Origin: Leptolyngbya sp. BC1307
Lineage (GTDB): Bacteria; Cyanobacteriota; Cyanobacteriia; Phormidesmidales; Phormidesmidaceae
Assembly: GCF_002286735.1 (NCBI RefSeq)
Contig: NZ_NRTA01000032.1
Coordinates: 1-51,151, forward strand
Length of the DNA stretch: 51,151 nucleotides
Direction of reading: 5' to 3'
The notes beneath the pieces are model-generated. The model had not been told where the DNA came from. It made no database searches and saw nothing but the letters and a program-made list of their open reading frames with translations. The translations under genes and the position numbers were made by a program. The first letter of the stretch is position 1; every line of letters starts with the position of its first letter. Positions 9,283-41,917 of this stretch are shown piece after piece.

Positions 9283-10020
9283 ATGCGTTCAAAAGATCTC
9301 GATATTGGCGAGCAGGCAATTAGCCAGGCAGCTGAGGCGGGCATTAAGTCTCAGATGGATGAAGTGGAATCGCTCGATGTGGAACTTCGTACCGACCCCG
9401 GCAAGCTAGCTCGCGGCGAAGTCGATGAAGTCACTGTCGAAGGGCGCGGGCTAGTGGTGCAAAACGCGCTGCGCACTGAGCATCTGTCCCTGAAAGCTAA
9501 CTCAGTTGACATCGATATGATCAAAGCTGCCTTAGGCGACATTAAGCTAGAGCAGCCAGCCGATGCCTCCGCACGAGTGGTGCTCAAGGCTGAAGATATT
9601 CAAAAGGCGTTTAACTCCGACTACGTCAAGCAGAAGCTACGGGGCCAAAAGATAGATTTACCCTCAGGTGAACGAGTGACGACCGATGCCAGCAATGTCA
9701 GCTTTACAATCCCTGAGGCAGGCCAGATTGCTGTGGAAGCTGATGTAATGCTAATAGAGAAAGTGGAAACGCATCATGTAGCTTTTACGGCCAGGCCGCA
9801 GCTGATGGAGGGCGGTCATGTGGTGACCCTCGAAGATATTCAGTATGACGAAGCGACGAATGACATGCCTGAGCTAACGCAGTCGCTAGTAGACAGCACG
9901 CAAGACATACTAGATTTGCGCAGCTTTGAACTCAGCGGAACAACGCTACAGTTTGACGAGCTAATGGTAGAGCCCGGTCAGCTGATTATTCAGGCGCAGG
10001 CCAAGATTGAGTCTTTTTAA
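9283..10020 (+). CDS. DUF2993 (LmeA-like) protein
   Basis: A 245-residue member of the DUF2993 family, common in cyanobacteria and actinobacteria; the actinobacterial LmeA binds phospholipid and helps lipomannan elongation. Here no signal peptide is visible and the substrate is unknown. Seen: the N-terminal E-S-L-D-V-E-L-R-T-D-P-G-K-L-A-R-G-E-V-D segment, V-V-Q-N-A-L-R-T-E-H-L, a middle A-R-V-V-L-K-A-E-D-I-Q-K-A-F-N, and a C-terminal L-D-L-R-S-F-E-L-S-G-T-T-L typical of the family. It lies 75 bp behind the SpoIID-domain gene on the same strand, so an envelope role is plausible. Confidence 0.8.
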   Translation: MRSKDLDIGEQAISQAAEAGIKSQMDEVESLDVELRTDPGKLARGEVDEVTVEGRGLVVQNALRTEHLSLKANSVDIDMIKAALGDIKLEQPADASARVVLKAEDIQKAFNSDYVKQKLRGQKIDLPSGERVTTDASNVSFTIPEAGQIAVEADVMLIEKVETHHVAFTARPQLMEGGHVVTLEDIQYDEATNDMPELTQSLVDSTQDILDLRSFELSGTTLQFDELMVEPGQLIIQAQAKIESF

Positions 10021-10261
10021 CGGCTTTGTTACACCTGGGTTCTCGTGGTCACTTGTGTCGTGAGCAAAGGGGCCAACGCTATGGCACTGCGCCTGAATAA
10101 CGTCAGCTTAAAGAGGCGGTCAGCGCCAGCGAATATCCCTAGCGATCCTTAAGGTGATGCTAAGTTGAGAGGTGTCTTTGGAAAGTCGCAGTATTATGCA
10201 CTGGCGAAAGCTCTGCTCGCGGCTGAAACGTAAAGTATCACCGCACACTTTTCAGAAAACT

Positions 10262-10310
10262 GCCCTCCCGAGGGCTCAATTTTCTTTCTACAGTGTGAAA
10301 GAAAATTGAG
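10262..10310. terminator. Terminator-like double hairpin
   Basis: GCCCT/AGGGC (10262-10266 and 10271-10275, loop CCCG) is followed by TCAATTTTCTTT, a form expected of an intrinsic terminator for rightward transcription. The T-rich part is the left arm of a second, perfect 14-bp inverted repeat (10275-10288 and 10297-10310, loop of 8), so the two hairpins compete for at least one shared base. The mutual overlap could equally be a regulatory switch. Confidence 0.55.
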
Positions 10311-10311
10311 C

Positions 10312-10350
10312 TTCGGCTTGTATATTTCGGCTTGTATATATAGACAAGCC
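10312..10350. repeat. 14-bp tandem duplication merging into a hairpin
   Basis: TTCGGCTTGTATAT occurs at 10312-10325 and 10326-10339. The second copy supplies the left arm GGCTTGT (10329-10335) of an inverted repeat whose right arm ACAAGCC lies at 10344-10350. Confidence 0.85.
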
Positions 10351-10430
10351 TACGTCGATTGCTTTCGCAGTCACTTTGCCCATTGGTTGCGTCAGGCTTT
10401 TAGCCGGTATAAATGAGCAAAGCAAGGTGG

Positions 10431-10467
10431 CAGACGCTATAGTTCTTCAGACGCTATAGTTCTTCAG
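10431..10467. repeat. 17-bp perfect tandem duplication
   Basis: CAGACGCTATAGTTCTT occurs at 10431-10447 and again at 10448-10464, followed by a further CAG. It lies about 45 bp before the ndhD start, probably in the promoter or leader of that gene. Confidence 0.9.
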
Positions 10468-10511
10468 TAGCTCATCTGTACGCACATCACGCCGCAGAAT
10501 ATCACTTTGTT

Positions 10512-12113
10512 ATGGATCAATTTCCCTGGCTGTCGTTCATTATTTTCTTCCCGTTTTTAGCGGCACTGCTCATCCCCTTTATCCCCGACGAAAAAGGTCG
10601 CACCGTTCGGTGGTATGCCCTGGTTGTGGGCCTTATAGACTTTGCTGTGATCGTCTATGCCTTTGTCAACAACTACGACATCAGCAGCTCAGGGATGCAG
10701 CTCTACGAAAGCTACACCTGGGTACCTCAAATTGACCTGCGCTGGTCTGTCGGAGTCGATGGCCTTTCGATGCCGCTGGTACTGCTGACGGGCTTCATTA
10801 CCACGCTGGCGATTTTGGCCTCTTGGCCGGTGACTTTTAAGCCCAAGCTGTTTTACTTCCTGCTGCTGTCAATGTACGCCGGTCAAATTGGCGTCTTTGC
10901 CGTACAGGACATGCTGCTGTTTTTCCTGATGTGGGAACTAGAGCTGCTGCCGGTGTACCTGCTGCTCTCGATTTGGGGCGGTAAGAAAAGGCTGTACGCA
11001 GCGACTAAGTTTATTCTGTACACCGCTGGGGGATCGCTGTTTATCCTGCTGGCAGCGCTGGGAATGGCCTTTTATGGCGATACAGTTACCTTTGATATGC
11101 AGTCGCTGATGGCTAAGGAGTTCCCGCTGCGGCTTCAGCTCTTACTGTATTCAGGATTTTTGATTGCCTATGCGGTAAAGCTGCCAATTATTCCGTTTCA
11201 CACCTGGTTGCCCGACGCGCACGGTGAGGCGACAGCGCCTGTGCATATGCTGCTGGCTGGCATTCTGCTGAAGATGGGCGGCTATGCGATTATTCGGATG
11301 AATGTAGAAATGCTGCCGGATGCGCACGCGGTGGTCGCCCCGGCGCTGGTGATTTTGGGCGTGGTGAATATTATCTACGCCGCCCTGACCTCGTTTGCGC
11401 AAAACAATCTCAAGCGCAAGATTGCCTACTCGTCAATTTCACACATGGGCTTTGTGCTGATTGGTCTGGGGTCGTTTACCAACCTCGGACTTAGCGGCGC
11501 AGTGCTGCAAATGATCTCGCACGGACTGATTGGCGCGAGTTTATTCTTTCTGGTGGGCGCAACCTACGACCGCACCCATACGCTCATCCTCGATGAGATG
11601 GGCGGCGTGGGCCGTAAGATGCCGAAGATCTTCGCCATGTTTACCACCTGCTCTATGGCGTCTCTGGCGCTGCCGGGGATGAGCGGTTTTGTCGCTGAGC
11701 TGATGGTGTTTGTGGGCTTTGCCAATAGCGATGCCTATGGCTTTAACTTCAAGCTGATCGTGGTGATGCTGATGGCCGTAGGCGTGATTTTGACGCCGCT
11801 GTATTTGCTGTCGATGCTGCGCGATATCTTTTACGGGCCTGAAAATCAGGAGCTGATTGAGAATGAGGTGCTGATTGACGCGGAGCCGCGCGAAGTGTTT
11901 GTGATTGCCTGTCTGCTGATTCCGATTATTGGCTTTGGGCTATACCCCAAGGGGCTAACTCAGCTTTACGATGCGAAGACGATGCAGCTTACGGAGCGCC
12001 TGCGGACAGAAATGTTTGCGATCGCCCAAGACAAAACCCCACCGCTGCCGATTGCCACTACGCCGCTACTCAATGCGCCGCTACTCAATGCGCCGGAGCT
12101 ATCGCAACCGTAG
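10512..12113 (+). CDS. ndhD: NAD(P)H-quinone oxidoreductase chain 4 (NdhD)
   Basis: Proton-pumping membrane subunit of thylakoid NDH-1, used in respiration and cyclic electron flow. The 533-residue sequence has about 14 membrane helices and the antiporter-like core: [11 protein letters not shown] carrying the key glutamate, [23 protein letters not shown]-like loop (here [10 protein letters not shown]), and [19 protein letters not shown] with its lysine. It resembles the NdhD1-type chain of the NDH-1L complex; assignment among NdhD paralogues is inference. No ndhF is next to it. The last residues carry a repeat [10 protein letters not shown] derived from a 15-bp duplication. Confidence 0.95.
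12061..12094 (+). repeat. 15-bp in-frame tandem duplication at the 3' end of ndhD
   Basis: CGCCGCTACTCAATG occurs at 12061-12075 and 12076-12090, followed by CGCC. It encodes P-L-L-N-A twice in the tail of NdhD and keeps the reading frame. Confidence 0.9.
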
Positions 12114-32715: not shown

Positions 32716-33372
32716 TTAGAAAAGCGCGAAGGCCACATTTTCTAGCGCTTTGAGTCCTTTTAGCGAGCCTCTAATAAATCGGATTGCTGATAGCGGACGT
32801 TTTATAAAACTGAGAGCTAGGTACATTGGCCTGAGTGAGCCGTCGGCTGCGATCGCCCCCGCAATATCGGGCAAATCATCCTGACAGTCATCACTGATCA
32901 CTCTCAAGATAGCGATCGCCCTCTCAGGCAATGCCTTCAGTAAAACAGCTCCTTCCATATCGACGACGCTGGCACTGTAGCGATCGCCTAATCTCTTTTT
33001 CTCCGCTACGGTTGTAATCACGCGATCGCATGTCACGCCTATCCCAGTGGCAATCCTCAGTCGTTCTGCCAGTTGAGTGGTGAGAGTGCGATCGCATGCA
33101 AACATCTCTCCTGCCGCCTGCCAAATTTTCTCTATCACGACTCCATTACCCACGCTCAGCTCAGGCGTGAGACTGCCGCCTAACCCCATCAGCAATACGC
33201 CGCCCTCCCGAATAGACCGGGTTTCTAAAAACGTTTTAACACCCTGCGGCCCCGCCGGAATCGCCACTAATTCAGGAGCATTTGGCACCCTACTCAGTCC
33301 GCTTTTGACGGCCTGGTACTCAGCCCCCGCCGGCACCAGAACTGTCTGAATTTTTACGCTTTCGCTATACAT
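32716..33372 (-). CDS. hpnG: Hopanoid-associated phosphorylase, HpnG-like
   Basis: A 218-residue nucleoside-phosphorylase-fold protein. In hopanoid synthesis HpnG removes adenine from adenosylhopane, the product of HpnH. Seen: V-L-V-P-A-G-A-E-Y at the start, L-L-M-G-L-G-G-S-L near residue 61, the substrate motif S-A-S-V-V-D-M-E-G-A-V-L, and R-V-I-S-D-D with the base-binding aspartate. Fold motifs alone would allow other MTA/SAH nucleosidase-like roles; the HpnG call rests on hpnA and hpnH close by. Its ATG overlaps the stop region of the ABC gene by 8 bp, so translation is probably coupled. Confidence 0.7.
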   Translation of the reverse strand: MYSESVKIQTVLVPAGAEYQAVKSGLSRVPNAPELVAIPAGPQGVKTFLETRSIREGGVLLMGLGGSLTPELSVGNGVVIEKIWQAAGEMFACDRTLTTQLAERLRIATGIGVTCDRVITTVAEKKRLGDRYSASVVDMEGAVLLKALPERAIAILRVISDDCQDDLPDIAGAIAADGSLRPMYLALSFIKRPLSAIRFIRGSLKGLKALENVAFALF

Positions 33373-34999
33373 GAGATGGCTGAACAGGTGGGTTATCGTA
33401 GCTAATGCTGCCGTAGTCGAGCTTAATTAAGCGATCTGCCCAATGAAAATAGCGGTCGTCGTGGCTGATGACAAAAATAGTCTTGCCTTGGGCTTTTAAA
33501 TCAGGCAAAAACTGAGTGTAAAAAATGTGCTTGAAGGTAGGGTCCTGGTCGGCTGCCCATTCGTCAAACAGGTAGATCGGGCGATTCTCTAGATAGGCGC
33601 TTAGCAGCGTGAGTCGCTTGCGCTGACCCTGAGAAAGTGACGTTGTCGAAAATTCGCCATGATCAATGCTGACCTTATGGTCGAGCTGTAATTTTTTTAG
33701 GTATTCTCTGGCGCGAATATCGTCGGCGCTGCTGTCGAAGCCCAACAGTCGATCAAATAGATAGAAATCTGAGAAAACAACAGAAAAATGCTGGCGATAC
33801 CAGTCTTGATTTTGAGCCGTCACCGGCTGATCGTCTAGCCAGATAGATCCAGACTGAGGTTGATACAGGCCCGTTATTAGCTTGGCTAGTGTAGATTTGC
33901 CGCTGCCATTACCGCCAATGACGAAAATTAGCTCGCCAGGATGCACTGTCAGGTTTACGGGGCCAAGCGTGAATTCGCTGTCGCCCTGATCGGTGCGGTA
34001 GGTATGGGTTGTCTCCTTGAGGCTAAGGCGGTGCCAGTCGGTGGGCGGTGGGGGCGCTGTCGCAGCAGACTTAGGACTGCTCAAGCTCAGACCCAGTGTC
34101 CTGATTTTATCAAGAGCGATGCTGGCGCGACTGAGCAGCGGTAGCTTGTTGACCAGGCTTTCCATCGGGCCGAGCACATAGGTAAAGGTAAGCACGTAGC
34201 CAAAGCGCATTTCTGGGGTGATGCCAATCCATCGCGGTAGGGCAAACAGTATCAGCCCCACCGCAAAGAAGTAGATGAACTTTCCCCAACTATCGATAAT
34301 GGCAAACAGGCTCATGCCTCGCTCGTTGGCGCGGCGAACTCGAATAGCGGTTTGTTGTAAATCTGCTTCTAAAAAGTCTTGCTGACCCAAATAGTGCAGC
34401 TTGAGTTCTTTGACGCCATCAACCAAAGTGCGAAAGTGTTGAAATAGCTGATCCTGTTGTTCTCGGGCTATGCCCAACCACCGCCAGCCACTGACTAGAA
34501 ACCAGCGACAGCTCACTGAAGCGATCAGCGTCAGCAAAATCACCAGCGCCAGCACTTGCCACGACAGCCAGGAGATATAGACCATGCACCCTGCGGCGCT
34601 AGCAATGTTAATTACTAGCATCGGCACCACACCAGCGGCGTTTGCGACCGTCTGTACGTCTTCTGTGAGCACTACTAGCAGGCGCGGCAGTCCTAAGGTC
34701 TCTAAGGGTTTTAGTTCAGTCGCTAAAATCTGGCGGCTGAGGCGCATTTGCAGATCAAATACCGCCGCCTGAGAGAAGCGGACTAGCAGAATGCGAGAGA
34801 ACATAGCAGTCGTGAGCGCGACAATGCCCAAGCCGATGAAGGCAACTGTGATTGCCCCACTCGGCAACCCTTCCTGCACGACCGTCCGGCTGATCAATGC
34901 AATCAGACCCGCGCTACAGCCACCGCTGACTAAGCCAGTCAGGAGCGCGATCGCCACCGCCCGCCACGAAGCCTTCAACAAAAAAACAATGACATCCAT
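33365..34999 (-). CDS. Cyclic-peptide-exporter-type ABC transporter
   Basis: A 544-residue half-transporter with fused membrane and ATPase parts, resembling the SyrD/PvdE/YojI-type family named for cyclic peptide export. Six membrane helices span residues 1-290. The ATPase has Walker A G-G-N-G-S-G-K-S-T at 362-370, signature S-L-S-Q-G-Q-R-K-R at about 453, Walker B I-Y-L-F-D-E-W-A-A-D, and switch VISHDDRYF. There is no peptidase or peptide-synthetase gene nearby. It lies inside the leftward hopanoid-type operon, 24 bp after hpnA and overlapping hpnG, so a lipid or lipid-conjugate substrate is a reasonable inference. Confidence 0.85.
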   Translation of the reverse strand: MDVIVFLLKASWRAVAIALLTGLVSGGCSAGLIALISRTVVQEGLPSGAITVAFIGLGIVALTTAMFSRILLVRFSQAAVFDLQMRLSRQILATELKPLETLGLPRLLVVLTEDVQTVANAAGVVPMLVINIASAAGCMVYISWLSWQVLALVILLTLIASVSCRWFLVSGWRWLGIAREQQDQLFQHFRTLVDGVKELKLHYLGQQDFLEADLQQTAIRVRRANERGMSLFAIIDSWGKFIYFFAVGLILFALPRWIGITPEMRFGYVLTFTYVLGPMESLVNKLPLLSRASIALDKIRTLGLSLSSPKSAATAPPPPTDWHRLSLKETTHTYRTDQGDSEFTLGPVNLTVHPGELIFVIGGNGSGKSTLAKLITGLYQPQSGSIWLDDQPVTAQNQDWYRQHFSVVFSDFYLFDRLLGFDSSADDIRAREYLKKLQLDHKVSIDHGEFSTTSLSQGQRKRLTLLSAYLENRPIYLFDEWAADQDPTFKHIFYTQFLPDLKAQGKTIFVISHDDRYFHWADRLIKLDYGSISYDNPPVQPSHV

Positions 35000-35023: not shown

Positions 35024-36010
35024 TCAGGCCGCGTAGCCATTCGCGACAAACCAATCGACCTCACGCTGTAAAGCCTGCAAAATTGGCGTTTGGGGCAATC
35101 CCAATTCCTTAACAGCCTTAGAAGCGTCGTAATACATAGTTTTGGTACCCTTGCGAACGCCATCTAGCGGCACGGTCGGCTTTCTACCCAGGCGGGCCAA
35201 GAGATTTTCTTCTATCCAGGCAACGGCGAGCGGAATGCCGACTGGAATGGATCTTGTGGGGGCGCTGATACCCGTGAAGTCTTCTAGCAGGTCGAGCATC
35301 GCTTTAAGCTTCATGTTTTGGTTGCCTAGAATGTAGCGATCGCCCGAGTGCCCTTTCTGCAGCGCCAGCAGATGCCCCCAGGCCACATCTTGCACATCAA
35401 CAAAATTGAGCCCTGTATCTGCCAGATAAAACGGCATCTTCTGCCGTAAAAACCGCACAATAATATCCCCGGTAGGCGTTGGCCTAACGTCCCAGGCCCC
35501 AATCGGCGACGTAGGATTAACAATCACGATATCTTGCCCCCCGGCGATCGCCTTAAAAGCCTCTTGCTCCGCCCAGTATTTAGACTTGCGGTAGTGCCCA
35601 ATCAGGTCTTCCACCGGAGACTGATGCGTTTCATCGACTGGCACGCCTTGAGGCCCCAGGCCAATCGTCGCCGCCGAGCTGGTATAGACCGTGCGTTTAA
35701 TGCCTGCGCGGTTAGCCGCTGCCAGACAGTTGCGCGTGCCCAAAACATTGGCCTGGTGTAGCCGCTCCCGGTCTGACTGCCAGAGAGAATAGTACGCCGC
35801 CACATGAAACAGCGCCTCGCAGCCCTGCATCTGCTGCCAGAGATCGGGATCGTTTAAATCGCTCGTGACTTTTTCAACGTTCAACCCTTGCAGATTATCA
35901 AGCCGGCTGTTGGGCCGCACGAGAGCGCGGACGCTGTGCCCTTCTTGCAGCAGTAGGCGAATGACATTTGCCCCGATAAATCCGGTGCCGCCGGTGACAA
36001 ACACTTGCAT
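35024..36010 (-). CDS. hpnA: Hopanoid-associated sugar epimerase HpnA
   Basis: An extended short-chain dehydrogenase of 328 residues. NAD-binding G-G-T-G-F-I-G at 7-13, catalytic S111-S112 region in YTSSAATIG, and Y140-x3-K144 in HYRKSKYWAE are intact. The sequence agrees with the hopanoid-associated HpnA family: VRPNSRLDNL, VDETHQSP, Q-D-I-V-I-V-N-P-T-S-P-I-G and D-T-G-L-N-F-V-D-V-Q-D-V-A. HpnA acts on a sugar-like head group or side chain; the precise substrate is not established. Third gene of the leftward unit, 45 bp from the RND gene and 24 bp before the ABC gene. Confidence 0.88.
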   Translation of the reverse strand: MQVFVTGGTGFIGANVIRLLLQEGHSVRALVRPNSRLDNLQGLNVEKVTSDLNDPDLWQQMQGCEALFHVAAYYSLWQSDRERLHQANVLGTRNCLAAANRAGIKRTVYTSSAATIGLGPQGVPVDETHQSPVEDLIGHYRKSKYWAEQEAFKAIAGGQDIVIVNPTSPIGAWDVRPTPTGDIIVRFLRQKMPFYLADTGLNFVDVQDVAWGHLLALQKGHSGDRYILGNQNMKLKAMLDLLEDFTGISAPTRSIPVGIPLAVAWIEENLLARLGRKPTVPLDGVRKGTKTMYYDASKAVKELGLPQTPILQALQREVDWFVANGYAA

Positions 36011-36055: not shown

Positions 36056-38728
36056 TCAGGCAGAGCGTCGGGCTACCTTTTCCCAACTATCTTCTAAAAG
36101 ACTATAGAGCACGGGCACCACCACCAGGCTCAGTAACGTAGAAGTCAGCAGCCCGCCAATAATCGCCACGGCCATCGGCTGACGCAGCTCCGAGCCTGCG
36201 CCCAACCCTAGCGCGATCGGGATCATCCCCAGCACAGTAGAAGCCGTTGTCATCAAGATAGGCCGCAGCCGCACCAGCCCCGTCTGCAAGATGGCCTCGG
36301 TGCGCTTCATGCCCGTGCGCCTGAGCTGATTGGTGTAGTCCATCATTAGCAGTGCGTTTTTATCGAGCAGCCCGAGCAAAAACAGCAGCCCGAGCACCGA
36401 CACCAGGCCAAAATCGCTCTGAGTGACCAGCAGCGCCAGCATCGCCCCGACCACAGACAGTGGCAGCGTCAGCCCAACCACCGCCGGTTCTAGCAGCCGC
36501 CCAAACGGGATCAGCAGCACCGCCAACATACAAACGACGGCAAAAGCCAGCGTTCTCCCAAAGCTGCCCAGCACTTCACCAATGCGGGCAGAGTCGCCGC
36601 CTAGGTCGATGCGAATGTCGGCAGGAATAATAGACTGGGCAATCTCTACCACCTGATCGGTAGCGTCTCCCAAGGCTTTACCCTCGCTCAGATTGGCGCT
36701 GATAAAGGCTACTCGCTCACCGTTTTGGCGGGTGATTTCAACAATTTGCTCAGGGGTATTGTCTTCTCCAGAAAGGCTGACATCGGCAAAGCCGGGCAAA
36801 CCTTCAACTTCTGCTTTGACTTCAGCAGCGGCTTGATCGAGCGTTGCCAAATCGTCGCCGAGTAGGGCCACTTGCAAAGGCTTTTCGCCACCAGTATCGA
36901 CAAACTGAACGTCTTCGATGCTGGTGATGAGGTCGCTTTGCTCGGGTAGATCCTGGCGAAGCTGGGTTTGGACGGCGGCGGTGTCACGGGTGCGATCGCC
37001 CTTCAATTTGATATAAAGACTGCCCTGATTAGGTCGCCCCTGTCCGCCTGCAGTTGTCAGCACCGAGTCCACTTCTGAGAGTTGAAATACTGTGTCTTCT
37101 AGCGGTTCAGCCGCTGCCAAAGTTTGCTGCAGTAGCTGCGCTCTCGGGTCAATAGAGGAAGGATTGGCTTGGGGATCTTGTAATGGCCCGCCCGCCGGTC
37201 GGGGCTGAGATTGGGCCAGCGGTACCGTGTAATTGAGATAGAATTCACCCCGATCAAGCTGCGGGATAAAGCCTTGAGGAATCAGCGGAATGATGGCAAT
37301 CCCGGCGATGAAACTAGCGATCGCAATTCCTACCACATTCCACCGATGCGCCAGCGACCAGGCTAGTAAGCGGCTATAGCTACGTTCTAACCAGGAGACA
37401 GGCGCTGCCTGACCACCACCTTGATCGGCCTCTGTTGGCGGCAATCGTCCTGGTTTCAGCCAGTAGGCCGCCAGCACCGGAGAGAGCGTCCGCGCTACCA
37501 GCAGAGAAATCAGCACCGCTGCCGATACGGTCAGGCCGAAGGGTTTAAAAAACTGCCCAATCGTGCCGCCCATAAAGGCCACGGGCAAAAATACTGCTGC
37601 GATCGTCAGTGTAGAGGCCGATACCGTCAGGCCAATTTCTCGCGTGGCAATCAGTGCCGCCTGACGCGGACTGTGCCCCAGCTCAATATGCCGGATGATA
37701 TTTTCTAGCTCCACAATGGCATCATCTACTACAATGCCAATCACCAGCGCCAGGGCTAGCAGCGTAATCGTCTCCAGGTTAAAGCCTGCCACCGCCATGA
37801 CGATGCAGGTACCTAGCAGCGAGAGCGGAATCGCCAGGGCGGTAATTAGCGTGGCCCGCCAGCTACGTAAAAAGGCAAAGATTACCAAAACGGCAATGGC
37901 GATCGCCCCAATCAGCGAGCTAATCGTCGCCTGCGTTGCCGCCCGAATGTACTCCGCCTGACTTGCCGCCAGCGTAAACTGCACCTGCGGCAGGTCGCTT
38001 TCCAACTGCTGCACGGCAGATTCTACGCGGTCTACCACCTCTAGCGTATTCGCATCGCCCTGCTTCACCACCTGCACCGCCAGCGCCGTCTGACGGTCAA
38101 AGCGCACCAGCGTCGGTGAGTTTTGCAAAGCAGCTAGCGATCCCTCCAATTCGTCTGGCTGCGCTTGAACGCCTGTGCCTCGCAGATCTACCCGGAGAAC
38201 GCCGGAAATTTCTTGCAGTACGGGCAGAATTTCAGCTTCCGCCAGGTCTGCCAAGTCGGTTAGCGATAGGCCCTCACTCGAAAGCGCATAGCTAATGGCC
38301 GTGGCCTCATTGAGATTCAGCGGAATAATGTCGTAACTAGCCGCTGGCGGCAGTTCGACCTCGCCCAGCGCTTGCTCAACAGCAGCCCTATCTTCATCGA
38401 GTGCCGTACCAACTTTAAACCGCAGATTGATGACGGTGCGACCCGCCGATGTCGATGAAACGGTCTTGTTAAGCGGCTCTAGCGATCGCAGCTGATCTTC
38501 CAATGGAATGGTTAACTGCGTCTCGCTTTCTAGCGCGGTCTCAATCGGCGCAGTGGCACTGACCACCACGACTGGAAAAGTAATGTCAGGAAAAAGGGCG
38601 TACTTGAGGGAACTCAAAGCAAATAGGCCCGCTACTGCGATCGCAATCCAGCAGCAAACGGTCACCCAAGAATGCTGAATTGCAATCCTGGAGACGTTAA
38701 ACCGATCTCGAAACGAAGTAGGGGCCAT
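36056..38728 (-). CDS. RND transporter lacking docking subdomains
   Basis: An HAE/AcrB-type RND protein of 890 residues where about 1040 is normal. Helix 4 keeps the proton-relay pair D334-D335 (GIVVDDAIVELEN) and helix 10 keeps K790 (G-L-L-D-K-N-A-L-L), so it should be proton-driven. The first porter loop jumps from ISGVLRVDLRGTG (about 174-186) almost straight to F-D-R-Q-T-A-L-A-V-Q-V-V. The second jumps from S-L-S-G-E-D-N-T-P-E-Q-I-V-E-I to N-G-E-R-V-A-F-I-S-A-N-L. In AcrB the docking subdomains DN and DC lie at these two points. No periplasmic adaptor gene is adjacent. The operon position points to lipid handling. Confidence 0.88.
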   Translation of the reverse strand: MAPTSFRDRFNVSRIAIQHSWVTVCCWIAIAVAGLFALSSLKYALFPDITFPVVVVSATAPIETALESETQLTIPLEDQLRSLEPLNKTVSSTSAGRTVINLRFKVGTALDEDRAAVEQALGEVELPPAASYDIIPLNLNEATAISYALSSEGLSLTDLADLAEAEILPVLQEISGVLRVDLRGTGVQAQPDELEGSLAALQNSPTLVRFDRQTALAVQVVKQGDANTLEVVDRVESAVQQLESDLPQVQFTLAASQAEYIRAATQATISSLIGAIAIAVLVIFAFLRSWRATLITALAIPLSLLGTCIVMAVAGFNLETITLLALALVIGIVVDDAIVELENIIRHIELGHSPRQAALIATREIGLTVSASTLTIAAVFLPVAFMGGTIGQFFKPFGLTVSAAVLISLLVARTLSPVLAAYWLKPGRLPPTEADQGGGQAAPVSWLERSYSRLLAWSLAHRWNVVGIAIASFIAGIAIIPLIPQGFIPQLDRGEFYLNYTVPLAQSQPRPAGGPLQDPQANPSSIDPRAQLLQQTLAAAEPLEDTVFQLSEVDSVLTTAGGQGRPNQGSLYIKLKGDRTRDTAAVQTQLRQDLPEQSDLITSIEDVQFVDTGGEKPLQVALLGDDLATLDQAAAEVKAEVEGLPGFADVSLSGEDNTPEQIVEITRQNGERVAFISANLSEGKALGDATDQVVEIAQSIIPADIRIDLGGDSARIGEVLGSFGRTLAFAVVCMLAVLLIPFGRLLEPAVVGLTLPLSVVGAMLALLVTQSDFGLVSVLGLLFLLGLLDKNALLMMDYTNQLRRTGMKRTEAILQTGLVRLRPILMTTASTVLGMIPIALGLGAGSELRQPMAVAIIGGLLTSTLLSLVVVPVLYSLLEDSWEKVARRSA

Positions 38729-38794: not shown

Positions 38795-39631
38795 CTAGCT
38801 GGCAACTTGGGCGATCTGCTCCTTAGTAATCTGGCCGACAATGGCCAGCACATCGCTACGGCTGAGCTTCTCTCTGCCTTGAGAAAGCGCGTCAAGCGTA
38901 CCGTGTGCCAGCGCTAGCGGAATGCGGCAAAACGTCAGCGCCGGGCCTTTAGGTAAGGTGGCTGTATAGGCATCTGCCAGCGCCAAGTTGCGGCGGGCAT
39001 AGCGCTGCATGTCAGCGTCTGTCCAGCCGTTGGGGTAAAAGTCTACGCCTCGGGTCATATCTTCAGCGTGGTTGCGCAAAATATTGACTGACTGTAGACC
39101 CCGCCCAAAGCCAATCGCCTCGGTGCGGCTAGTCTGAGTTCCATCGTGCCAGGCCCACAGATCAGACAGCATCAGGCCCACCGCCCCCGCCACGCTAAAC
39201 GAATAGCGATTGAGATCCGCCTCATCTTGAATCAGCCAGTTGCGCTCTGCCCAGTAGGCCATCCGGTCGGCCATCGCCGCTGTCGCATCCCAGATACGCG
39301 GTGAAATCGTCGCCGGGGCCAGCAGCGCCCACTCGCCAATTCGCAGCGTCACCTCTTCCAACTCTGCCCCGCCATCTTTCAGCCCGACCGCAAAATCATC
39401 TGCGGCAGAAGTTGCTGTCCCTGCCTGCAAATTTAAGCTGAGCTGCCTGAGTAGCTTGGACTTAAGAACAAAATCCATATCGGCATGATCTTCAATCTGG
39501 TCAATCGCCCGCATACACAGGTAGGCAGACGCTACAGCTTCTTTAAGACCTGAAGGCAATAGGCTGATAGGAATAAAAAAAGTTCGGCTGGTTGCTTTCA
39601 ATAAAGCCAGAGCGGGATCGACAGGTAGCAT
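38795..39631 (-). CDS. Squalene/phytoene synthase family protein
   Basis: A 278-residue class I isoprenyl head-to-head synthase. In the hopanoid pathway such enzymes supply squalene from two farnesyl diphosphates. The first Asp-rich motif is D44-Q-I-E-D48 (CMRAIDQIEDHAD) and the substrate loop SRTFFIPI is present. The second motif reads N187-H-A-E-D191 (VNILRNHAEDMTRG), so the usual first Asp is Asn. YSFSVAGAVG matches the family core. It may be a one-enzyme squalene synthase; phytoene synthase is less likely by context. GGAGAG precedes the ATG. It opens the leftward operon, with the RND gene 66 bp behind. Confidence 0.82.
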   Translation of the reverse strand: MLPVDPALALLKATSRTFFIPISLLPSGLKEAVASAYLCMRAIDQIEDHADMDFVLKSKLLRQLSLNLQAGTATSAADDFAVGLKDGGAELEEVTLRIGEWALLAPATISPRIWDATAAMADRMAYWAERNWLIQDEADLNRYSFSVAGAVGLMLSDLWAWHDGTQTSRTEAIGFGRGLQSVNILRNHAEDMTRGVDFYPNGWTDADMQRYARRNLALADAYTATLPKGPALTFCRIPLALAHGTLDALSQGREKLSRSDVLAIVGQITKEQIAQVAS

Positions 39632-39788: not shown

Positions 39789-40802
39789 ATGGGCATTCAT
39801 CTCCAGCAGGCGGTCTCAGTCGGCCAATACCTCGTGTCTCAACGTCTTAGAGGTCGCAAGCGGTATCCTCTGGTACTCATGCTAGAGCCGCTGTTTCGAT
39901 GCAATTTGGCCTGCTCTGGCTGCGGAAAAATTCAGCATCCAAAAGAAATTCTTAAGCAAAATCTTTCTCCTCAAGAATGTTTTGATGCGGTTGAGGAGTG
40001 CGGTGTGCCGGTAGTTTCTATCCCCGGCGGTGAGCCCTTGCTGCACCCTCAAATTGACGAAATTGTACGGGGATTAGTCGAGCGTAAAAAGTTTGTCTAC
40101 CTCTGTACAAACGGACTGCTGCTAGAAAAAAGCCTGGATAAGTTTGAGCCCTCGGCTTACTTGAGCTTTAGCATTCATCTCGACGGACTGAAGGAACTGC
40201 ACGACCACTGCGTAGACCGCAAAGGCGTGTTTGAAACGGCGATCAGCGCCATTCGTGCGGCCAAGGCCAGAGGCTTTCGGGTGACGACCAATACCACTGT
40301 ATTCCAGGGCACCGATCCCAAAGAAATTCAAGATCTGTTTGACTACCTGACTGAAATTGGGGTAGATGGCATGATGGTCTCTCCTGGGTACAGCTACGAA
40401 TGGGCCCCCGACCAGGATCACTTTCTGCAAAAAGAACAGACCAAAGCGCTGTTCCGGGAGATCCTAGCGCCTTTTAACAGCGGCAAAAAAGCCTGGCAGT
40501 TTAATCACAATCCGCTCTTTTTAGATTTTTTGATCGGCCAAAAAGACTACGACTGTACGCCTTGGGGCAGCCCTAGCTACAGCGTATTGGGCTGGCAAAA
40601 GCCTTGCTACCTGCTAAATGAGGGGCACTACAAAACTTTTCAAGAGCTGCTCGATCAGACCGACTGGGATAGCTACGGCGCAAAAAGCGGCAATCCTGAA
40701 TGCGCAAACTGTATGGTTCACTGCGGCTATGAGCCCACGGCGGCAGCAGATGCGATGCAGCCTCGGAATATGGCGCGATCGCTCGGCAGTCTTTTCGGCT
40801 AA
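39789..40802 (+). CDS. hpnH: Adenosyl-hopene transferase HpnH (radical SAM)
   Basis: Radical SAM enzyme that joins a 5'-deoxyadenosyl group to diploptene, the first step of the C35 hopanoid side chain. The cluster motif is C38-x3-C42-x2-C45 ([12 protein letters not shown]). [10 protein letters not shown], the SAM-binding strand, follows. C-terminal cysteines lie in D-C-T-P-W-G-S-P and [12 protein letters not shown], the layout of the HpnH family. The 337 residues match the usual length. It starts the rightward unit, and the sulfotransferase gene begins 5 bp after its stop. Confidence 0.93.
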
Positions 40803-40807
40803 ATCCT

Positions 40808-41917
40808 GTGCCCTCTTCTACCCAGCCCCGCCTGCTGCACCCCCTCATGGGTGCAAATCTAAAGACGCTTACGGCCCTCCTTCGCCAAAATGGGCCGGGG
40901 CGCTACCCGGTGCATCTCTCTATCATTCTAGGAACTGCGCTGCTGCGCTGGCCTTTCTCAACGTACGAACGCTGGCAGGTGGCGCGTTCTCCGCTACCTG
41001 AGCAGACCAAATCTCCTATTTTTATCGTGGGCCACTGGCGTAGCGGCACGACATTTTTGCACAGCGTACTGTGTCAGTCGCCTCAGTTTGCCTATACCTC
41101 ACCGCTAGCCGTAGGTTTACCTTGGGACTTTCTCACCCTGGGCAATGGGCTACAGCCAATTTTAGAGCGAGCCCTGCCCAAAGATCGATTTATTGACCGG
41201 GTGCCGGTGAACCCAGATTCTCCCCAAGAGGACGAGATCGCCTTAGCTAGTATGCAACTGCTGTCGTTCTACCACGGCCTGTATTTTCCCCAACGCTTTA
41301 CCCAAAACTTCAACGCCGGGATTTTTTTTGAGGGCTGTAGCGAATTAGAAATTGAGCGCTGGCAGCAGGCAATGGTTCACTTTTGCAAAAAGCTTCAGCT
41401 CCAAAACCCCGACCAGCAGTTGCTGATCAAAAATCCGGTTTACACCGCCCGCGTGCAGCGGCTGCGTCAGCTCTGGCCAGATGCCAAGTTCATTCACATC
41501 TATCGCAATCCCTATGTTGTCTTTCGCTCCACGCTAAATTTTTACGCCAAGCTTTTTCGAGAACTGTCTTTGCAGCCTTTTGAGCATGTCCCAGTCGAAG
41601 AGATTGTGCTGGAGAGCTACCCTAAGATGATCAATCAGCTTTTGCAAGATACTGAGTCTTTGCCCAAAAAAGATTTTATCGCGCTCCAGTTTGAAACGTT
41701 TGAAGCTCAGCCGATTGAACAGCTCTCTCAGGTTTATGAGCAGCTAGAGTTAGCGGGTTGGGAAGATGACCTGCCTGCTTTTCAGCGCTATCTCGACTCA
41801 CAAAAACACTATCAGAAGAACCAATATTCTTTTCCTAAAGAGATGATTGAACAGGTGAGCGATCGCTGGCAACCTTTGATTGATCGCTGGGGCTACGAAC
41901 CTCCTACCTGTTCGTGA
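40808..41917 (+). CDS. Sulfotransferase family protein
   Basis: A 369-residue PAPS-dependent sulfotransferase-fold protein. The 5'-phosphosulfate loop is I-F-I-V-G-H-W-R-S-G-T-T-F-L-H at about 71-85, and the 3'-phosphate site is FIHIYRNPYVVFRSTLNFY with R233 and S241. Both are intact. The acceptor is unknown; its place right behind hpnH suggests a hopanoid or a lipid made with it, by inference only. The start is GTG 5 bp after the hpnH stop; an ATG at 40847 is the alternative. The stop lies 24 bp from the convergent gntR-type gene. Confidence 0.85.
   Translation: MPSSTQPRLLHPLMGANLKTLTALLRQNGPGRYPVHLSIILGTALLRWPFSTYERWQVARSPLPEQTKSPIFIVGHWRSGTTFLHSVLCQSPQFAYTSPLAVGLPWDFLTLGNGLQPILERALPKDRFIDRVPVNPDSPQEDEIALASMQLLSFYHGLYFPQRFTQNFNAGIFFEGCSELEIERWQQAMVHFCKKLQLQNPDQQLLIKNPVYTARVQRLRQLWPDAKFIHIYRNPYVVFRSTLNFYAKLFRELSLQPFEHVPVEEIVLESYPKMINQLLQDTESLPKKDFIALQFETFEAQPIEQLSQVYEQLELAGWEDDLPAFQRYLDSQKHYQKNQYSFPKEMIEQVSDRWQPLIDRWGYEPPTCS

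Follow-up and report, generated by a model that had tools for sequence, protein, structure and literature searches.

A docking-less RND permease of the AcrB lineage as a probable hopanoid transporter in cyanobacteria

The Permease and Its Features

The window considered here is a stretch of 51,151 nucleotides from the cyanobacterium Leptolyngbya sp. BC1307 (contig NZ_NRTA01000032.1), which carries at positions 36056-38728 a gene for a permease of the resistance-nodulation-division (RND) superfamily. Judged from alignment and a predicted model, this protein has lost the docking subdomains DN and DC as a pair, while its four porter subdomains and its proton relay are retained. Since it is found, in the genomes examined, only where hopanoids can be made, it probably represents a hopanoid transporter that has so far gone unrecognised. 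Hopanoids are sterol-like lipids that are known as molecular fossils. The features of the gene and its product are as follows, where pLDDT denotes the predicted local distance difference test.

36056..38728, minus strand: docking-less HAE-1-derived RND permease of 890 amino acids (open reading frame, PF00873 match and predicted model)
37721..37726, minus strand: relay aspartates D335 and D336 (AcrB D407 and D408), invariant in the family alignment
36359..36361, minus strand: relay lysine K790 (AcrB K940), invariant in the family alignment
38111..38179, minus strand: linker of residues 184-206, which replaces DN between strands 2 and 3 of PN2 (AcrB 194-265 absent; pLDDT below 50 at 190-200)
36737..36772, minus strand: linker of residues 653-664, which replaces DC between strands 2 and 3 of PC2 (AcrB 720-795 and 806-814 absent; flanking model strands 647-652 and 665-668)
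37154..37228, minus strand: PC1 insert of residues 501-525, not in AcrB, between strand 1 and helix 1 (from the alignment; pLDDT below 50 at 507-525)

The protein matches PF00873, the AcrB/AcrD/AcrF family, with 578 bits (cut-off 28) in four stretches along the chain, whereas its score against PF03176 (MMPL) is 60.6 bits, which does not place it among the MmpL (HAE-2) transporters. The nearest solved chain by sequence is MdtB. With 890 residues against the 1049 of E. coli AcrB, it is 159 residues shorter, in agreement with the sequence-only reading that had prompted this analysis and had estimated a deficit of about 150. The relay of AcrB, which we take to consist of D407, D408, K940, R971, and T978, is present as D335, D336, K790, R820, and T827 in the alignment with AcrB, and all five residues are invariant across the family alignment (46 sequences drawn from 60 loci). 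The earlier reading was therefore right about K790 and placed the aspartates one position too early, at D334 and D335; R820 and T827 are kept as well. Since the relay residues are kept, proton-driven cycling is to be expected.

Paired Loss of the Docking Subdomains

Alignment with AcrB and with the six full-length RND proteins found in the window's own genome reveals no counterpart for AcrB 194-265 (DN), nor for AcrB 720-795 and 806-814 (DC). Across 59 family members, the interval corresponding to AcrB 182-271 has a median of 11 residues (0-42) compared with 85-91 in the six full-length proteins, and that corresponding to AcrB 724-812 has a median of 5 residues (0-7) compared with 89-92. The porter segments retain their length, as illustrated by AcrB 38-181, which spans 144 residues in AcrB and 137-154 in the family. 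One locus, L180, was dropped before counting because the wrong open reading frame had been taken, and another, L094 of genome G157, was left out of the alignments and length ranges; its RND gene (9743-11308) is reduced to the C-terminal 521 residues, by either an assembly fault or a real truncation.

In the AlphaFold2 model, computed with the 46 sequences (pLDDT 85.1; predicted template modelling score 0.82), all four porter modules are complete; where DN and DC would sit, the chain runs through a linker of low confidence (190-200) and a short loop around residues 653-664, respectively. A gain of about 25 residues in PC1 appears disordered in this model. Superposition on AcrB-type chains gave, for the 50 structural matches listed, Z scores of 48-51 over 810-829 aligned residues, with a root-mean-square deviation of 2.5-4.8; HpnN was not among these matches, nor among those listed by Foldseek. 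According to a review, the funnel subdomains are inserted in PN2 and in PC2, each time after strand 2 and before strand 3 (PMC8277102), and it is there that the present chain is cut. The matched loss in both halves, with porter subdomains remaining, which had been proposed by eye, is thus borne out by the alignment and upon superposition of the model.

Chain length was considered as a marker of the family and rejected, as a member from Moorena has 1070 residues and is nevertheless docking-less. Its additional residues sit mainly in two places: the loop between the two halves (AcrB 500-565) comprises 164 residues compared with 63 in the window protein, and PC1 comprises 164 compared with 120.

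Descent and Distribution

In a tree of 57 rows, a branch with a support of 100 sets the 24 short proteins apart from all others, and the nearest full-length row is C8 of the same genome, sister to the short clade with a support of 100, beside which an HlyD-type adaptor gene lies. The tree was a quick maximum-likelihood estimate, midpoint-rooted and computed without the docking columns and without some of the PC1 insert; it included no HpnN row and had some long branches elsewhere. On these sequence grounds, the permease is placed by descent within the AcrB-type (HAE-1) lineage, so that the AcrB-type ancestor envisaged beforehand finds support from alignment, model, and tree alike. The loss of docking looks derived, because the short proteins constitute a single cyanobacterial clade nested among full-length RND proteins. 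No half-lost docking intermediates were seen among the rows read.

Among 292 Cyanobacteriota genomes, the docking-less permease was detected in 60 at E 1e-150 and in 61 by the family profile at E 1e-180; the additional carrier (G119), recovered by the profile search only, stands outside the locus counts, which refer to 60 loci. Thirteen genomes were examined at E 1e-30, among them the nine that possess the cyclase discussed below and no docking-less permease; across all thirteen, the best other RND protein reached 321 bits per stretch, as opposed to about 1237 or more for intact members. Other RND proteins match the profile in two stretches and intact docking-less members in one. This large gap in score makes the carrier threshold safe in those 13 genomes.

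The family profile found no match at E 1e-150 in 150 Pseudomonadota genomes, a set that held no positive genome and hence furnishes weak evidence for a restriction to cyanobacteria. In a scan of contigs, taken as a sample, five of the 80 loci kept span the query in the manner of the short form, and all five are cyanobacterial; the open reading frames read for three of them encode 866, 978, and 1070 residues. Non-cyanobacterial frames among the matches listed have at least 1013 residues, except for seven of 798-938 residues, six of which begin less than 80 bases from a contig end, while the seventh (L112) was taken on inspection to have a shortened N terminus.

Co-Occurrence with Hopanoid Synthesis

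Squalene-hopene cyclase (TIGR01507, above cut-off) was found in 70 of the 292 genomes, and HpnH (TIGR03470, above cut-off) in 68. All 61 carriers of the docking-less permease possess the cyclase and 59 of them also HpnH, while none of the 222 cyclase-less genomes has the permease. Within the class (139 genomes), both genes occur in 61 genomes, the cyclase only in 7, the permease only in 0, and neither in 71. Moreover, the permease follows the cyclase exactly in six of the seven families in which the cyclase varies (f1, f2, f7, f11, f13, and f20), being absent in f12, and in all three genera in which it varies.

This subset relation bears on the idea that the protein is a drug, metal, or solvent pump that acts in the inner membrane alone and releases its substrates to the periplasm, with the hopanoid link being secondary, for example through a need for hopanoid-rich membranes. 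In NCBIfam, the best models are indeed those of multidrug RND permeases, although all 18 listed families score below their curated cut-offs. Slr0454 of Synechocystis, an 890-residue protein with AcrB-family annotation, has been described as an efflux protein for cations or drugs that influences cadmium tolerance, and overexpression of its wild-type and truncated forms raised that tolerance (PMC6058365); by length and annotation only, it is perhaps a member of the same family. Deletion of slr0454 in the wild type, on the other hand, made no significant difference at 4.0 uM CdSO4 in the experiments described there (PMC6058365), and neither the restriction to cyclase-bearing genomes nor the gene order described below would be expected of a general pump, which renders this explanation improbable. 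Slr0369 (EnvD) of Synechocystis was tried as a relative and rejected, since it has 1083 residues (PMC5738210; Slr0369 also appears in PMC7076178).

Nine cyclase-bearing genomes (G007, G029, G085, G089, G159, G179, G241, G247, and G280) have HpnH as well, and neither a docking-less permease nor an HpnN match at the thresholds used. A few RND matches in three of them (G029, G159, and G241) sit in open frames shorter than 1000 residues (216-942). Two carriers, G051, whose assembly is one contig, and G097, have the permease and the cyclase with no HpnH match above cut-off, and the case of G051 suggests that extended hopanoids are not the sole cargo.

The Gene Neighbourhood

In the window, five genes on one strand (the squalene-synthase-like gene, the permease gene, and those of HpnA, an ABC exporter, and an HpnG-like protein) are separated by gaps of 66, 45, 24, and -8 nt. 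The permease thus lies between a squalene-synthase-type gene and hpnA with no adaptor gene adjacent, just as the sequence-only reading had it. The neighbours are as follows.

38795..39631, minus strand: squalene/phytoene-synthase-type protein, upstream of the permease gene with a gap of 66 nt (PF00494, 87.5 bits; squal_synth, 70.7 bits, below cut-off)
35024..36010, minus strand: HpnA, hopanoid-associated sugar epimerase, downstream with a gap of 45 nt (TIGR03466, 442 bits; cut-off 368)
33365..34999, minus strand: ABC exporter of the cyclic-peptide-exporter type, part of this run, with HpnA on one side and the HpnG-like gene on the other (TIGR01194, 490 bits; cut-off 286)
32716..33372, minus strand: HpnG-like phosphorylase, overlapping the ABC gene by 8 nt (TIGR03468, 75.7 bits, below the cut-off of 187; PF01048)
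39789..40802, plus strand: HpnH, adenosyl-hopene transferase, divergent from the permease run (TIGR03470, 556 bits; cut-off 225)

Across the 60 loci, a hopanoid gene lies within 7 kb of the permease in 39, the window included, and is its immediate neighbour in 27. Within this distance, the HpnG-like cluster occurs in 27 loci (again including the window), HpnA in 24, HpnH in 20, squalene-hopene cyclase in 9, HpnB in 8, and squalene-synthase-like proteins and HpnI in 3 each. Only open reading frames of at least 100 residues were clustered, and each cluster was labelled from one or two representatives, those of the HpnG-like and squalene-synthase-like clusters scoring below the curated cut-offs; TIGR03468 may cover cyanobacterial HpnG poorly. 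As a control, no hopanoid gene was found near the six full-length RND genes of the same genome in the fetched stretches of 9-14 kb.

The nature of these neighbours raises the question of whether the cargo might be something other than a finished hopanoid, such as squalene, diploptene before the side chain is added, or an intermediate (side-chain or sugar) from the HpnA, HpnG, and HpnH steps. The genes found most often near the permease are those of HpnG-like proteins, HpnA, and HpnH, and in the single-contig genome G051, which like G097 combines the cyclase with no HpnH above cut-off, the cargo could be something other than an extended hopanoid. Intermediates that are made and used at the cytoplasmic face, however, have no obvious need of a periplasm-facing RND protein, and the HpnG step is itself uncertain, as the HpnG-like proteins tested fall below the curated HpnG cut-off. 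We regard a hopanoid-linked transporter of unfinished cargo as unlikely, albeit the strongest of the rivals considered.

A cyanobacterial co-occurrence module for hopanoids, module 65, has been reported with five gene groups, namely HpnA, HpnB, HpnF, HpnH, and a phosphorylase (PMC5862535), all of which co-occur with the docking-less permease or neighbour it. As described, this module contains no transporter, and the words "RND" and "efflux" are absent from the main text of that paper. A phylogeny of RND proteins mentions a mainly cyanobacterial clade, with "docking" and "hopanoid" absent from its main text (PMC10872679). In the openly licensed literature, no paper was found that ties a cyanobacterial RND protein to hopanoid transport.

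Adaptor Genes

Adaptors can act from distant genes, and the permease might accordingly dock by its porter domain alone with an adaptor and TolC encoded elsewhere; the genome of the window encodes at least six adaptors. Each of its six full-length RND genes has one of them beside it on the same strand, recognised by an HlyD-type Pfam match, with a 159-residue open reading frame lying in between in the case of C68. For the docking-less permease, in contrast, no adaptor gene was detected within 5 kb in any of the 60 loci (851 open reading frames; nine of the locus stretches have less than 5 kb on one side), no search having been made for TolC-type genes. The queries were the six adaptors of the same genome together with AcrA, and as most of these adaptors find one another, the search appears reasonably sensitive; its two matches in the 60 loci lie 5.3 and 5.9 kb from the permease gene. 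Of the two outcomes that would have counted against the sequence-only reading, neither was seen: the model has no docking subdomains, and homologues of this form were not found beside adaptor genes within that distance. With the funnel subdomains missing from both model and alignment in addition, docking onto a distant adaptor seems very improbable.

Comparison with HpnN and Other Known Systems

HpnN (HAE-3) is the natural point of reference, as it shares with the docking-less permease membership of the RND superfamily, a link to hopanoids, and the proposed job. In Alphaproteobacteria, hpnN is reported in all examined genomes of predicted producers (PMC12583986). In none of the 70 cyanobacteria with the cyclase did the HpnN model give a match at E 1e-30, while the same search scored above cut-off in three of six proteobacterial genomes as a positive control, and HpnN was thereby rejected as the cyanobacterial hopanoid transporter. 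The window protein itself reaches 22.5 bits against the HpnN model TIGR03480, the cut-off of which is 751.85, and a profile comparison of the two families returned a probability of 2 percent, a weak result as the HpnN profile contained two sequences only. HpnN has been described as a dimer with helical PD3 and PD4 inserts in PD1 and PD2, unlike the docking subdomains of AcrB (PMC8277102). Such helical inserts are not seen in the model of the docking-less permease, which has short linkers between strands 2 and 3 of PN2 and PC2 and, in contrast with HpnN, four porter modules of the AcrB type. The permease may consequently work like HpnN yet lies outside the HpnN family.

With AcrB and the other HAE-1 proteins (PF00873), it shares whole-length homology, the fold, and identical relay residues, and it differs from them in the absence of DN and DC, the PC1 insert, the lack of an adaptor found nearby, and the loss of the distal-pocket phenylalanines. 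Of the marks of a tripartite HAE-1 pump, the docking subdomains are absent and no adaptor gene was found within 5 kb. RND lipid exporters outside the AcrB-TolC scheme are known from mycobacteria in the form of MmpL (HAE-2) (PMC8277102).

A Four-Cysteine Protein Upstream

In 11 of the 60 loci, a gene for a small protein with four invariant cysteines and, by eye, a signal-like N terminus lies directly upstream of the permease gene on the same strand, at gaps of 47-176 nt and one of 634.

L042:929-1288; L044:8042-8401; L059:8228-8569; L091:8021-8365; and seven other loci: four-cysteine protein, upstream of and on the same strand as the permease gene

A profile of this protein matched in 29 of the 292 genomes at E 1e-16 or better, all 29 being carriers of the permease, by a threshold chosen after the list had been inspected; at E 1e-5, it matched in 42 genomes, namely 31 carriers and 11 non-carriers. 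Fisher tests were applied to this co-occurrence. No match was found in the genome of the window at E 1e-5, so that the protein is not a general requirement. Searches of Pfam and NCBIfam gave no convincing match (best E 0.0014 and 0.0076) and no named family. The predicted model is a four-helix unit (pLDDT 77, with a poor N terminus), for which fold searches of the PDB returned no clear match. This protein may be a carrier, subunit, or partner of the docking-less permease in some lineages.

Proposed Role

Taken together, these results favour, with a probability of roughly 0.7, the view that an RND permease from the AcrB (HAE-1) lineage has turned into an adaptor-independent hopanoid transporter in cyanobacteria; substrate, direction, and oligomeric state are the inferred parts of this view. 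It is best read as a counterpart of HpnN derived from HAE-1, which is driven by protons and works without an adaptor and TolC. A fuller version appears tentative, at somewhat less than an even chance: that this is the missing cyanobacterial hopanoid exporter, which lost both docking subdomains, moves its lipid between the two membranes without adaptor or TolC, arose separately from HpnN, and in some lineages passes its cargo to the secreted four-cysteine helical protein.

The PC1/PC2 cleft is a site of substrate entry in AcrB (PMC8277102). By this route, hopanoids, either C30 or extended bacteriohopanepolyols, would be taken up at the periplasmic face of the inner membrane, while proton flow through TM4 and TM10 would power the cycling of the porter. 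The lipid would then leave for the periplasm, bound for the outer membrane or for a soluble carrier, rather than pass into a TolC duct. In AcrB, the lost parts DN and DC make up the funnel toward the outer-membrane channel. DN of AcrB also helps to hold the trimer together. In this way, the permease would fill in cyanobacteria the proteobacterial job of HpnN from a different RND branch, with the four-cysteine protein as a candidate carrier or subunit in some lineages. Hopanoids of Nostoc punctiforme are reported to be concentrated in the outer membrane of akinetes (PMC3883690), which indicates that a need for such transport exists.

Several observations weigh against this interpretation. In 9 of the 70 cyclase-bearing genomes, only far lower-scoring RND matches occur in place of the docking-less permease, so that the transporter is not required for hopanoid production. 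Phylogenetic independence does not hold for the co-occurrence counts, a weakness that the contrasts within families and genera help to offset. The tie to hopanoids holds at the level of genomes, and 21 of the 60 loci lack any recognised hopanoid gene inside 7 kb of the permease gene; the expectation that the short form would always lie in hopanoid loci therefore failed, though all 61 carrier genomes have the cyclase. The phenylalanines that we take to line the distal pocket of AcrB are absent from the aligned permease, which fits an altered substrate and names none, and Slr0454, perhaps of the same family, raised cadmium tolerance when overexpressed. Of the hopanoid flipping or extraction role originally suggested, the link to hopanoids is sustained by the carrier genomes and the neighbouring genes, and the choice of substrate and of flipping or extraction stays conjectural.

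Cyanobacterial hopanoids figure in fossil-biomarker claims on early oxygenic photosynthesis (PMC12583986), and the docking-less permease provides one concrete candidate gene for their transport in 61 of the 70 cyclase-bearing cyanobacteria, in which HpnN was not found. If this assignment is true, the AcrB fold is able to dispense with the entire docking platform and serve lipid traffic instead, and what a porter can do without the funnel becomes directly testable.

Other Genes of the Locus

The squalene/phytoene-synthase-type protein at 38795-39631 scores well below the cut-offs for squalene synthase and for HpnC and HpnD. A second, much stronger PF00494 protein is encoded elsewhere in the genome (C3:65831-66628), and for that reason the protein of the window may have another role; relatives of it lie near the permease gene in two other loci, L046 and L055. 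The ABC exporter at 33365-34999 belongs to no neighbour cluster common to three or more of the 60 loci. Beyond HpnH, a protein of the sulfotransferase family (PF13469) is encoded at 40808-41917, beginning 5 nt past the end of the HpnH gene, and this proximity suggests a sulfated product or a tailoring step.

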